Origin: Tetradesmus obliquus
Taxonomy: Eukaryota > Chlorophyta > Chlorophyceae > Sphaeropleales > Scenedesmaceae
Direction: 5' to 3'
Assembly (NCBI GenBank): GCA_030272155.1
Contig: CP126200.1
Span: forward strand, 4,464,001 to 4,528,000
Length of the DNA: 64,000 bases
In this document: positions 1 through 64,000 of the stretch, one piece after another
How positions within the stretch are numbered: the stretch's first letter is position 1
How the letters are laid out: each line of letters opens with the position of its first letter
The notes under the pieces: model-generated
Told to the model about the DNA's origin: nothing
Database searches by the model: none
What the model saw: only the letters and a program-made list of their open reading frames with translations
Translations under genes and position numbers: made by a program

Positions 1-3000
1 CTGCTGCTGCTGTTGCTGCTGCTGCGCCTGCTGTTGCTGCTGCAGCAACGCTTGCTGCTGTTGCTGCAGCGCCTGCTGTGCTTGCTGCTGTTGCCGCCTT
101 TGCAGCCGCTGTGCATATGCTGAAGAACCCCCAGCTGCTGCCCCTGCTGCTGCTGTTGCTGCTGCTGCTGCTGCTGCTGCAGGCTGTGAGCCCACCACTA
201 TTACATCATCGTCATCCTGGCTGCCGATTACCACCACATCATCTGCCTGCCGCTGCCAATTGCTGGCTGCCTGCTGCCGATTGCTGGCTGCCTGCTGCTG
301 CTGTTGGCCGCTGCTACCAGGCGCAACCCGTGTTGGTGCAATGCCTCTCTGCTGCCTGCCTGCCTGGGCTTGCAAAGTCACTGCCATTTGCTCATCCTCA
401 GAATCATCTGAATCAACAAGAAACGTCAGTGCTGTTGGCTGCTGTTGCTGCTGGCCTTGTGCCTGCTGCTGCGCATTGAGCTGCTGCCAGAACAGCTGCT
501 GCCGCCGGCTAGCCCCCGCTGCTGCAGCTGCGCCACCACCGCCAGACCCTGCTGCTGCTGCTGCAGCACGCTGCTGGCTGGAGCCCTGCTGCACAGCAGC
601 TGCTACTGCAGTCGCGTCATCATCATCACTGTCTACCAGGTCGATAACATCAGATGTGGCAGACCTTGCGGCAGGAGGTGCTGCTGTCGTAGCTGCTGCT
701 GCTCCTGCTGCTGCGTTGTCACCTGCCTTTTGGCGCTTCTGCCGGTGTGACGTGGAACGCGGCTGCGCAGCCGCAGCCGCATCCATCAAGTCATCATCGT
801 CATCACCTGCTGCTGCTGCTGCTGCTGCCATAGCTGCTGCGTTGCGCCGGCGTGACCTGGTTGGCGTCGCACCTGCGGCTGGTGACCCTACTGCACGCCT
901 GCTGCTGCCTCCGCTGCTGCCGGCTGCAGGGCCTGCTGCAATTGCTGTGAATGCAGCCGCAAACCGTGGCCCTGCTGCTGCCTGCCCTGCCTGCCAATGC
1001 GCAGACCGGCCAAACCCCCTAGACGACGCCCCTGCAGCAGCAGCCGCTGCTGCTGCTGACGAGCCCGCACCACCACCACCACCACCACCAGCAGCAGCAG
1101 CAGCATTTGGAGCAGCAGTTGACCCCCAGCCCATGCGTCTATGGTTCTCCAGTGTCCGGTTGAACGCTGCGCGCGCCTCTGCGGTGCTGTAACCCCGTGT
1201 GGGGTTGCCGCTGCTGAAGTCGATGCGCAGCGGGCCTGACCTGCCTCCTGGGCCTGTGGCTGTCTGCACGACAGTCACCGGGCAGTCAATCTGCACAAAG
1301 TGCGAGCAGCAGCAGCAGCAGTACATCAGTGACACTGGGAGCTTCATCCATGTCTGTACTGCCTGGCATTGAGGTTATTTTCTCCACTGCAAAACCTACG
1401 GTTGCCAGACACAAACAGATACTGATGACGTAGGCTGGTCAAGCCCCCAACAGTGCGCATTGCACATGTTAATGATGGTAACTTTCACCAGCCTACCCGC
1501 CTTCACATCAGAATGCCGTACGCAAACGCACCATATCTCTGCCCAGATCTGAAAAACCATAACCAAGAGGCACCCCAGCGCACCATGTTGATCAGTATCA
1601 CGTTCAGCAGCGCCTTCACGCTGAAGCCATCAGGCAGCACACACAGACACCACGCCCAAACATGTCACACCATGATAGCCGCGCAGCGCACCATGTTGAT
1701 CGCTATCACGTTCAGCAGCGCTTCCACGCTGACGTCTGGCAATACGCACCACCAATCAAGTCTGCAATAACAAAAGAGGCACCCCGGCGCACCATGTTGA
1801 TGACCACCACATTCAGCAGCGCCTCCACGCTGAAGTCAAGCTGCTAGGAGGCGCAACACAAAGCCTCTCCACATTCAAAATTCTGCCCAGCGCACCATGT
1901 TGATCAATATCACATTCAGCAGCGCGTCCACGCTAAAATCTGACAATACGCACCGCCAATCAAGTCTGCAATAAAAAAAGAGGCACCCCGGCGCACCATG
2001 TTGATGACCACCACATTCAGCAGCGCCTCCACGCTGAAGTCAGGCTGCCATGAGCCGGGCGTGCCGCTGAGTGTGAGCGCTTCCAGGCAGATGCTGCCGC
2101 CAGCTGTGACGTGCCCCGTGTACATCACACACCTGCAAGCAGCAGCAGCAGCAGCAGCAGCAGCAGCAGCAGCGCAGAGCTGGTCAGGGGCGGCCGCTAT
2201 GGACACCTGCAGAGCTTCAGCACACGCGACAAGCATACATACCACCACCCTATGGACAGTAACAAGAGCTGTGTAGTGAAGAGGAAAGGGAGCTACCGCA
2301 CGCATACATGTGCATGCCATGTACATACATGTGCATGCCATGTGCGGTGGCTGTGCGCTGTAGTTGCTGCCGCAGAGCAGCAAGCCAATGTAGGTCTGGG
2401 TGTGTTGCAGTGTGCGTATGCATAACATGCTTGAATATGGTTCCACCTGGGTGACACCAGACGCACAAAGAAGGGCTGGTGCGGGTAATCCTCAAGGAAC
2501 TCAATCTGCATCAAGATGTGGTCCTGGCCATACCTGCAGCAGCAGCAGCAGCAAGCCCCCCACTTTAAATGGTTTGAGCGGTTGCAGCCGTGCAGTATGC
2601 TTGCTACAAGTGTGCCGGTGCCTGTCCTTGAAGATGGATGAAGCTGCTGCATGCAGGTGGCGCAAATGGCAAGGTGCATGGTGCGGCCTTATGCTGTTGC
2701 AGCTGATGCCGCTGACTGCCTTATGCCTGTCTCAAACCGCGTCCCACTGCCACATCACAAGCATTGCTGCAGGACCAAAGCGCTCCACATGCCTTTGTAC
2801 GCATGCATGTAGCTGCTTGCTGCCAAACCAGTCGGCCTCCTGTTGCAAAAACATGCAACTTGGCATGCTGCTGCCTGTGCAGCCGCTGGATATGTTCTGG
2901 GCCGCTGCTGTGCATTTTACAACGGCTGGATGGTTCTGCCTGCTGCTGTGTGCACGACGCGACTGCTGGACATCCCTGGCTGCTGCTGTATGCACTTTAC

Positions 3001-3846
3001 ATCAGCTGGATGGTTCTGCCTGCTGCTGTGTGCTCAACACAACTGCTGCTCTGTGCATTTCACAACTGCTGGATGGTTCTGCCCGTGCTGTGTGCACGAT
3101 GCAACTGCCGGGCACTCCTGGCCGCTGCTGTCAGCACTTGGCAACAGCTGAATAGTAATAGCATTGGAAGCTCACGTGGCAGCCAGGCGCCGCAGGTCCT
3201 GGTTCAGCTGCCTGCCGCCTGGCAGGTCATCGTCAAAGTTGTGCAGCTTCAGCTGCCACGTCAGCAGGCTGTCTCCTGCAAGCGACAGCTGCTGGATGAA
3301 GTCAAACTTTTTGGCCTGTATGTCAGCTGACAGGTGCTTGAACTCCGCCTGCACGCGCCGCATGCCCTGCAGGACACAGCAGCAGCGCAGTGTGCACGCA
3401 GCGTGGCTCATGAGGGTGTCCTGCAAGGCTCCTGTGCACAATAGTCCTGTTAAACTCTGTTTTATGCCGTGCTGATGCTAAATATTTGATAATTACTGCA
3501 GCAGAAGCTGGTCGCAGTGCTGTGATGCATGGGAAGCAGCGGCATGCCTGCAGCTGCAACGGTTGCAGGAAGCTGAGCATGCTCAGGTCCTGAGCTGCCT
3601 GTTAAGGGCTGTAAATACGTGCTACATCCATGCTGACCAGCTGCATCTGTTACATTTTAAGCCAAAGGAATTGTACTTGGCATCTATGCAGACAGGCAGC
3701 TGATGCTGTGTGCTGTGCTGTGAGTGCAGTTGGTGCAAGATGCTGCTGTGCCTGGCAGCAGGTTGCACCGCCCCAAAACCGCACAGGAACAAGGAGCTGC
3801 TGCTGAGGTCACGAACCTTCAAGTTCTTCCAGGCAGGAGTAGCCAT
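1..3846 (-). CDS. UBE2Q-type ubiquitin-conjugating enzyme with SUMO-binding-like, polyQ C-terminal extension (3' end outside window)
   Basis: Likely E2 enzyme that carries ubiquitin on a cysteine. Proposed exons, read right to left: 3817-3846 (uncertain, reads MATPAWKNLK), 3176-3366, 2447-2533, 1997-2132 and 1290 to beyond the left edge; all joins keep phase. The exon at 3176 gives the N-terminal helix and first strand of the UBC fold (LLTWQLKLHNFDDD). The next gives YPHQPFFVRLVSPR. The exon at 1997 gives GGSICLEALTLSG, whose Cys matches the active-site Cys of the UBE2Q family, and the last begins with the closing part of the domain (PLRIDF, then YSTAEARAAFNR). Behind it lies a tail of more than 350 residues, rich in Ala, Gly and Gln, with acidic SUMO-interacting-motif-like stretches (VIDLVDSDDDD; VVVIGSQDDDD; DDVIVVGSQ) and ending in polyQ at the edge. 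The intron before the last exon carries four extra copies of exon 1997-2132's 3' end. E2 assignment is firm; the first exon is doubtful. Confidence 0.82.
1571..2046 (-). repeat. Five tandem copies of a UBC helix-encoding exon end
   Basis: Five related segments start near 1571, 1681, 1778, 1886 and 1981. Each encodes on the minus strand a variant of SVEALLNVVVINMVR. The copy at 1981-2046 is the 3' end of the real exon (donor GTGCGC at 1991-1996). The copies at 1778 and 1981 are almost identical, as are their right-hand flanks, and those at 1681 and 1886 resemble each other, so a unit of about 200 bp holding two helices was itself duplicated. All copies keep an open frame through the helix and the ATG|GTGCGC-like donor, but no clear acceptor precedes the extra copies. 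Confidence 0.85.
2905..3135. repeat. Minisatellite of about 70 bp, three to four copies, in an intron
   Basis: The phrase gctggatggttctgcc recurs at about 2923, 3006 and 3069, together with variants of a tgctgctgtgtgcacgac phrase. It fills most of the intron between the exons at 2447-2533 and 3176-3366 of the UBE2Q-like gene. No splice junction is evident within the unit. Confidence 0.75.
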
Positions 3847-63875: not shown

Positions 63876-64000
63876 GTATGCTGACAGGTGGTTAACGTGA
63901 ACAACAAAGGGGTGTGGATTTCTTATAAAAACAGTGTGAAAAGCTCCCGGCAGCTGCTGGCCACAGCAAAACAACACGCATCAGCATCACTTGATGCTGA

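Follow-up and report, generated by a model that had tools for sequence, protein, structure and literature searches.

We describe here a stretch of 64,000 base pairs (bp) from the green alga Tetradesmus obliquus, referred to throughout as the window (contig CP126200.1, positions 4,464,001-4,528,000, within a 104.66-Mb genome of 17 contigs), in which many introns bear extra, mostly decayed copies of the adjoining exon end together with its splice signal. These copies look like the remains of duplications of about 120 bases that are unusually similar to the exon. Exon positions were taken from a self-trained gene finder under the additional rule that two copies of one duplication may not both be coding, and a homology check covered only Lhca and CSN5; the models are imperfect, with neighboring genes sometimes merged and certain exons missed. 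In the window, 15 masking rounds were required before the gene finder stopped calling copies as exons, which is a caution for gene finding in general, as untreated copies get called as exons. Pfam matches were obtained for eight of the nine window predictions searched and not for the ninth. The content comprises PhyH with a weak UQ_con match; IFT43; Chloroa_b-bind with aldo-keto reductase; CPSF100; an AAA helicase; JAB/CSN5; ankyrin; and AA_kinase with thioredoxin. A 163-residue piece of the window Lhca is 99% identical to a deposited T. obliquus protein. The duplications are as follows, donor-type ones lying at exon ends and acceptor-type ones at exon starts.

1565..2057, reverse strand: donor-type family in the gene with the weak UQ_con match (below the Pfam cut-off); exon 1997-2132, with four copies of the exon end (junctions 1584, 1692, 1793, 1896)
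9448..9585, forward strand: IFT43 acceptor-type pair; copy 9448-9489, exon from 9549
10006..10201, forward strand: IFT43 stop-end pair; coding end 10051, downstream copy 10149-10201
15230..15416, reverse strand: Lhca donor-type pair; exon end about 15359, copy 15230-15303
15502..15924, reverse strand: acceptor-type array at the same Lhca exon; exon start 15553, with three more copies of TGCAG plus 52 bp of exon, period 120
21677..21992, forward strand: CPSF2 donor-type pair; exon end 21757, copy 21905-21992
22902..23285, forward strand: CPSF2 donor-type pair; exon end 22973, copy 23170-23285
23520..24049, forward strand: CPSF2 acceptor-type array before exon 24017-24200; 23572-24049 is a 174-bp double unit
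24122..24597, forward strand: CPSF2 donor-type pair; exon end 24200, copy 24358-24597
27064..27396, forward strand: CPSF2 stop-end pair; stop 27131, downstream copy 27328-27396
28912..29295, reverse strand: helicase donor-type family; exon 29257-29348
30010..30324, reverse strand: helicase acceptor-type array; exon 29850-30074
30540..30837, reverse strand: helicase donor-type family; exon 30806-31069
31000..31208, reverse strand: helicase acceptor-type pair; exon start 31069, copy 31133-31208
31375..32244, reverse strand: helicase donor-type array (231 x 3.8); exon 32149-32307
32261..32579, reverse strand: helicase acceptor-type pair; exon start 32307, copy 32526-32579
33129..33589, reverse strand: helicase donor-type pair; exon end 33509, copy 33129-33215
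33636..34118, reverse strand: array adjoining the acceptor of exon 33509-33637; intron by the model, though it may hold an unmodelled exon
45214..45408, reverse strand: donor-type pair; exon from 45349, copy 45214-45297
49351..49645, reverse strand: ankyrin donor-type family; exon end 49607, copies 49351-49395 and 49488-49532
49691..50252, reverse strand: ankyrin acceptor-type array, period 123; exon start 49753
52647..53097, reverse strand: CSN5 acceptor-type family; exon start about 52704, copies near 52832 and 53076
53234..53519, reverse strand: CSN5 donor-type pair; exon end 53452, copy 53234-53304
53554..54148, reverse strand: CSN5 acceptor-type array; exon start 53616, copies near 53747, 53886 and 53986
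54347..54707, reverse strand: CSN5 donor-type array, period 126; homology places the exon end near 54651, with copies at 54389-54445 and 54515-54571
54722..55107, reverse strand: CSN5 acceptor-type family; exon start 54821, copies 54874-54984 and 55045-55107
55633..55941, reverse strand: CSN5 donor-type pair; exon end 55883, copy 55633-55709 interrupted by an in-frame stop
56001..56419, reverse strand: CSN5 acceptor-type array; homology carries the exon to about 56032, so the gene model (overlap 11 bp) under-calls it and the array was counted as intron
58229..58683, forward strand: array of period 150 in the thioredoxin-like gene, in the intron before exon 58696; counted as intron
63302..63717, forward strand: glutamate 5-kinase acceptor-type family; exon start 63605, copies from 63302 and 63395

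The wider sample comprised 314 kb, that is, the window and five 50-kb blocks (250 kb; C1, C2, C3, C4, and C9) on other contigs. Self-comparison of these six blocks yielded 159 local direct pairs in 91 families, 35 of them in the window and 17, 7, 8, 21, and 3 in the other blocks; the window families hold 65 pairs and cover 16.7% of its length. Chance similarity is ruled out by the reversed-sequence control, which gave 0 matches in each of the six blocks. Local inverted pairs numbered only two (one in the window) against the 159 direct ones, a head-to-tail orientation as expected of tandem duplication or a minisatellite. By gene model, 75 of the families span a junction, eight lie at a gene end, eight in an intron and none between genes, which makes 83/91 coding-edge families, and among the eight intronic ones that at 56001 is an exon edge by homology while that at 33636 may be another. 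Random placement of a 120-bp unit would instead put 0.26 across one junction, 0.336 in intron interiors, 0.158 in intergenic DNA, 0.176 in exon interiors, and 0.02 at gene ends. The pattern of duplication at exon edges is real and strong, and all ten nearly intact arrays (full-length, at least 85%) lie at coding edges. A single one of these ten is a simple two-copy event, a 215-bp duplication across a predicted stop codon (C2, 47636-48073, 99.1% identical), so that the initial annotation's description of the process as ongoing is doubtful.

Intron-side copies were recorded at 49/463 donors and 42/463 acceptors (53 and 47 with exon-side records added; 43 and 36 of 463 each without copies lying in predicted exons). 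The initial annotation had reported at least 25 affected junctions, and 32 of the 188 modelled window junctions indeed have at least one copy; its six named examples are all present (Lhca, CPSF2, the helicase, CSN5 at 52647-56419, ankyrin at 49351-50252, and glutamate 5-kinase). Its further claim that nearly every gene is affected fits the window, where 8/9 gene models have a junction copy, but not the whole sample, where 23/41 do. Copies lie in the intron beside the junction, as had been said, and additionally beyond stop codons (7/41 gene models), with no start-end copies (0/41). A copy is present at 14-17% of the junctions of the window, C1 (22/130), and C4 (23/168) and at about 3% of those of C2 (4/138), C3 (5/156), and C9 (5/146), an approximately fivefold difference among blocks, and genes inside one block also vary strongly. 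The spacing proved wider than the 79-270 bp first given, as smallest periods span 67-374 bp with three longer ones of 681, 793, and 1403 bp, although 58/91 fall at 105-152 bp.

Several other repeats were seen in the window. Near the start of CPSF2 a 90-bp segment occurs at 18976-19065 and 19657-19746 (93% identical, 681 bp apart), and a 152-bp segment of the same gene occurs at 24674-24824 and 26077-26228 (96.7% identical, 1.4 kb apart), both copies of this longer segment lying outside predicted exons. Long trinucleotide tracts (ATC x 83; CTG/TGC) are found at 25635-25884, 34574-34972, 62192-62290, and elsewhere.

A protein-level search independent of the gene models gave the same picture. With tblastn, the T. 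obliquus Lhca protein and the CSN5 of Scenedesmus sp. NREL 46B-D3 recovered the exons of the window together with additional partial exon-end matches alongside them; CSN5 residues 221-241, for example, had three extra matches, at 53747, 53886, and 53986, while residues 201-219 had two, at 54445 and 54571. Each duplicated stretch occurs once in the deposited Lhca protein and in the relative's CSN5, from which the copies are absent, and the predicted CSN5 aligns to a solved CSN5 without repeating the duplicated stretches. In the Lhca pair at 15230-15416, the window exon encodes Thr where the deposited T. obliquus protein and the intronic copy both have Ala, hence the copy may predate a change in the exon.

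The anatomy of the copies is uneven along their length. Of the 91 families, 0.55 have as their best pair not a plain tandem repeat, as had been supposed, but a spaced one (R-S-R, the match being shorter than 0.8 of the offset). Similarity between exon and copy mostly extends 29-80 bp into the exon (junction-anchored records) and ends at most 12 bp from the junction in 49/79 donor-type and 40/70 acceptor-type records. Within these closely ending records, donor positions +1 to +6 are shared at 0.96, 0.94, 0.86, 0.69, 0.92, and 0.61, compared with 1, 1, 0.72, 0.29, 0.53, and 0.29 in random donor pairs, and sharing at +7 is much lower (0.39 vs. 0.27). Acceptor positions -1 to -6 are shared at 1.00, 0.98, 0.80, 0.72, 0.70, and 0.45, compared with 1, 1, 0.97, 0.74, 0.50, and 0.42; upstream of the AG, acceptor copies therefore share little beyond what any two acceptors do. 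Among 77 spaced pairs, the copy-facing end lies 0-12 bp beyond the exon in 41 (20 pairs end exactly 5 or 6 bp past the edge), further out in 28, within 6 bp inside the exon in three and deeper inside in five, so sources lying more than 6 bp inside on this side are rare. In two of the seven stop-end pairs similarity ceases with the stop codon or a single base beyond it; in the remaining five it continues for 7, 28, 68, 167, and 209 bp.

Faint homology persists between the spacers. It was detected in 26/47 pairs ending at most 12 bp from the junction (p<=0.05 against dinucleotide shuffles; 18/47 at p<=0.01), the other-intron control giving 26/51, and in 12/21 pairs whose exon parts are at least 0.93 identical. 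At least about half of the pairs thus appear to have begun as tandem duplications that included intron and were later eroded, and a single event has come to show two apparent ages. The same discordance along one duplicated unit is found between copies: in 88/108 copy-copy pairs the 40 bp of exon origin agree better than the intron part does (mean 0.89 vs. 0.75), although the pairs lack independence, a number of copies fall within predicted exons, and detecting families via the exon part favors this result and may account for part of the gap. The families, their position and unit size, the faint spacer homology, and the better keeping of exon parts than of spacers, even between two intronic copies, are established here.

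Array C4 31287 has five near-identical intronic copies at 131-143 bp spacing with mostly unlike spacers, and in the C9 block (11737-11864) a second partial exon-start copy abuts the intronic copy without a spacer. A hypervariable zone beside splice sites, apparent in single arrays, was rejected, as across families the far side exceeded the near side in only 10/17, a comparison confounded by terminal copies. Mobile introner spacers were likewise rejected: when 45 spacer segments were searched against the 314-kb sample, no shared family emerged, and matches outside their own arrays were short and in many cases trinucleotide-rich, including a few of 31-35 bp at E about 1e-6. The initial annotation had also invoked intron gain by duplication of AGGT-bearing segments and reverse-spliced lariats. 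The former does not survive, because AG near the copy start (donor-type, 16/59 vs. 17/59 in the exon control) and GT near the copy end (acceptor-type, 5/50 vs. 3/50 in the control) are not enriched. The latter is opposed by the nearly equal involvement of donors and acceptors and by the affected stop ends.

One explanation would need only tandem duplication at random places, selection against damaged exons, and introns that decay faster. Straddling of one junction is not rare under random placement when set beside intron interiors (0.26 vs. 0.336), and the substitution of intron and exon parts (0.148 and 0.090) has the ratio expected of a drifting copy and a constrained exon. This was simulated by uniform births of 125 +/- 20 bp units on the gene models, which were evolved and then put through the identical search, the simulation being limited to two copies with no array expansion and arbitrary tract rules. 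Without conversion, the coding-edge share was 0.46 and 0.45, then 0.39-0.61 in six of nine settings, and 0.36 in a further run, all with matches not confined to the simulated unit, so that duplications in the flanks could count; runs restricted to the unit agreed (0.43, 0.48). Only two heavy-indel (insertion-deletion) settings of the nine, in which old events alone remain, approached the observed 83/91 (0.85, 0.93), but with a median identity of spaced pairs near 85 vs. 90 observed and indel rates exceeding the observed 0.167 gaps per substitution; one setting left nothing detectable. Simulated ends fell more than 6 bp inside the exon in 6/98, close to the observed 5/77, yet 32% lay at or below 12 bp compared with 49/77 spaced pairs (the selection of pairs not being the same), and the ten nearly intact arrays, all at coding edges, also count against this explanation. 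As most simulated shares lie far under 83/91, some bias beyond selection is likely, which upholds that much of the initial annotation's choice between selection and a junction-specific process. Selection on random duplications alone is not easily sufficient for the pattern; we already disfavor this explanation and consider it rather unlikely. A junction-directed process that copies the end of the exon as far as the splice consensus and puts the copy about 120 bp away in the intron would account for the sharp edges, that is, the 41/77 ends just past the exon, the 20 at exactly 5 or 6 bp and the scarcity of deep ends. It would also suit the excess sharing of donor copies at +3 to +6, the 9/21 pairs with exon identity of at least 0.93 but no spacer homology at p<=0.05, and the unlike spacers of array C4 31287. 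Nonetheless we hold it to be unlikely, given the spacer homology of 26/47 pairs, the unspliced stop ends, the equal treatment of donors and acceptors, the absence of an AG/GT signal at the other copy edge and acceptor copies that at -3 and -4 (0.80, 0.72) are no more shared than random ones (0.97, 0.74).

The intronic copies could also be functional exon ends, that is, alternative exons or regulatory decoy splice sites under selection, a possibility that we regard as improbable. Changed codons in 85 families comprise 211 synonymous and 233 others (share 0.475; bootstrap 0.413-0.551), where the estimated ceiling for a freely drifting copy is 0.425 with a third-position bias of about 2. The third-position bias of the copies, which is without a composition effect (0.92), speaks for function, as do the lower number of gaps per substitution in exon parts (0.054 vs. 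0.167), the mere six premature stops in 464 changed codons, for which chance predicts about 3%, and families in which all changed codons are synonymous, such as the CPSF2 stop-end copy 27064/27328 (7/7) and C1 22439/22696 (7/7). On the other hand, the period is divisible by 3 in only 35/91 families, near the chance third, on which ground copies as coding insertions were rejected; frameshifting gaps occur in 16/85 families and 29/33 gaps in coding parts are not multiples of 3. The GT of donor copies (0.96, 0.94) decays like the remainder of the copy, being preserved no better than codon positions 1 and 2 (about 0.955), while the AG of acceptor copies fares slightly better (1.00, 0.98). Alternative exons would keep frame and appear in proteins; the frameshifting gaps, the in-frame stop in CSN5, and the absence of the copies from the deposited Lhca and the relative's CSN5 speak against this, the few all-synonymous families being exceptions. 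We read this evidence as mixed, with most copies drifting and a subset recently rewritten from the exon or really used.

The explanation we tentatively favor, and hold to be possible rather than probable, is tandem duplication followed by exon-templated homogenization. Tandem duplications of about 120 bp would arise in the T. obliquus genome, and where a unit straddles a coding-exon edge, at a splice junction or a stop codon, the original would remain functional with the extra copy silent in the intron or past the stop. We infer that the selected exon could then overwrite its neighboring copies by gene conversion or unequal exchange inside the short repeat, which would keep the part taken from the exon similar. 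Spacers, and duplications wholly within introns, would lack a fixed master and hence drift. With the exon as master and the spacers drifting, old survivors would be nearly all at coding edges and resemble an exon end with its splice signal. The affected stop ends (7/41), the likeness of donors and acceptors, and the many copies that look unselected fit this explanation. In simulations with conversion, families beyond 0.3 substitutions per site survived more often when junction-spanning than when non-coding (47/350 vs. 13/350 and 27/350 vs. 2/350; in further runs restricted, as these were, to the simulated unit, 33, 59, and 41 of 300 vs. 20, 20, and 17 of 300), and old families were left spaced and with high identity.

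Several results weigh against homogenization by the exon. With steady births, conversion gave a coding-edge share of only 0.42-0.50 in the run restricted to the simulated unit and of 0.40-0.53 in those without this restriction, so that births would have to be rare now. Conversion also predicts blunter edges than are seen: it put 17/36, 9/25, and 13/27 ends, and 24-33% in other runs, more than 6 bp inside the exon (24-48% deep inside overall vs. 5/77 observed), and the 6/98 obtained without conversion fits better. The share of old families is therefore shifted toward observation by conversion, but the interior exon ends that it predicts are unseen. The nearer copy is the more similar in only 14/28 cases, the synonymous share is heterogeneous among families beyond binomial expectation, and the third-position bias, calculated after dropping 21 records lying in predicted exons, is 2.80 for exon-copy and 2.67 for copy-copy comparisons, above the ceiling of about 2 for free drift. 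A combined scheme, in which an edge-tied process copies the exon end and its splice signal at steps of about 120 bp, exons rewrite these copies, and introns fill with decoy splice sites, is in our estimation also unlikely; were it true, selection on an exon would reach into its introns and the spliceosome would have to ignore the decoys.

If exon ends do homogenize their own pseudo-copies, intron sequence near exons would be constrained in its drift, alternative splice sites would be generated wholesale, and T. obliquus would have a simple local source of intron growth. It would offer a natural system for splice choice among near-identical sites 120 bp apart and for measuring conversion between very short repeats. 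Minisatellites under concerted evolution likewise form head-to-tail arrays that expand and homogenize; here, by contrast, the well-kept part is coding sequence with a splice signal, and the spacers escape. Introner-like elements are a single sequence family inserted in many genes and give algal introns repeated sequence, whereas the present families are local to one gene. Internal gene duplications are reportedly common according to Gao and Lynch in 2009, and frequent duplication inside genes is shared with our case, although here most units comprise less than a whole exon or intron and the additional copy sits in non-coding sequence.

In the open papers searched we found no description of exon-edge copies in introns, and the accessible parts of two papers on the species mention none (PMC5966456; PMC3488318). 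PMC4974935 treats tandem duplication as one way in which introns are gained, with ATP2A1 and the potato RdRp among the cases; the potato gene reuses an intron-exon structure lying upstream, and the paper also mentions another intronic duplication, of 83 bp. Those cases and ours have in common a short tandem duplication within a gene that is tolerated via splicing. Unlike them, the T. obliquus families carry no sign of a new intron and their unit edges lack AGGT; an existing intron grows and an existing junction is multiplied. A related setting is that of a survey reporting that tandem repeats are concentrated close to intron-exon junctions, particularly in Chlamydomonas and Volvox (PMC3887541). 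The repeats in the part of that survey available are motifs, mostly short, and exon pieces with splice sites are not described there; green algae, introns, and enrichment toward the junction are nonetheless common to both.

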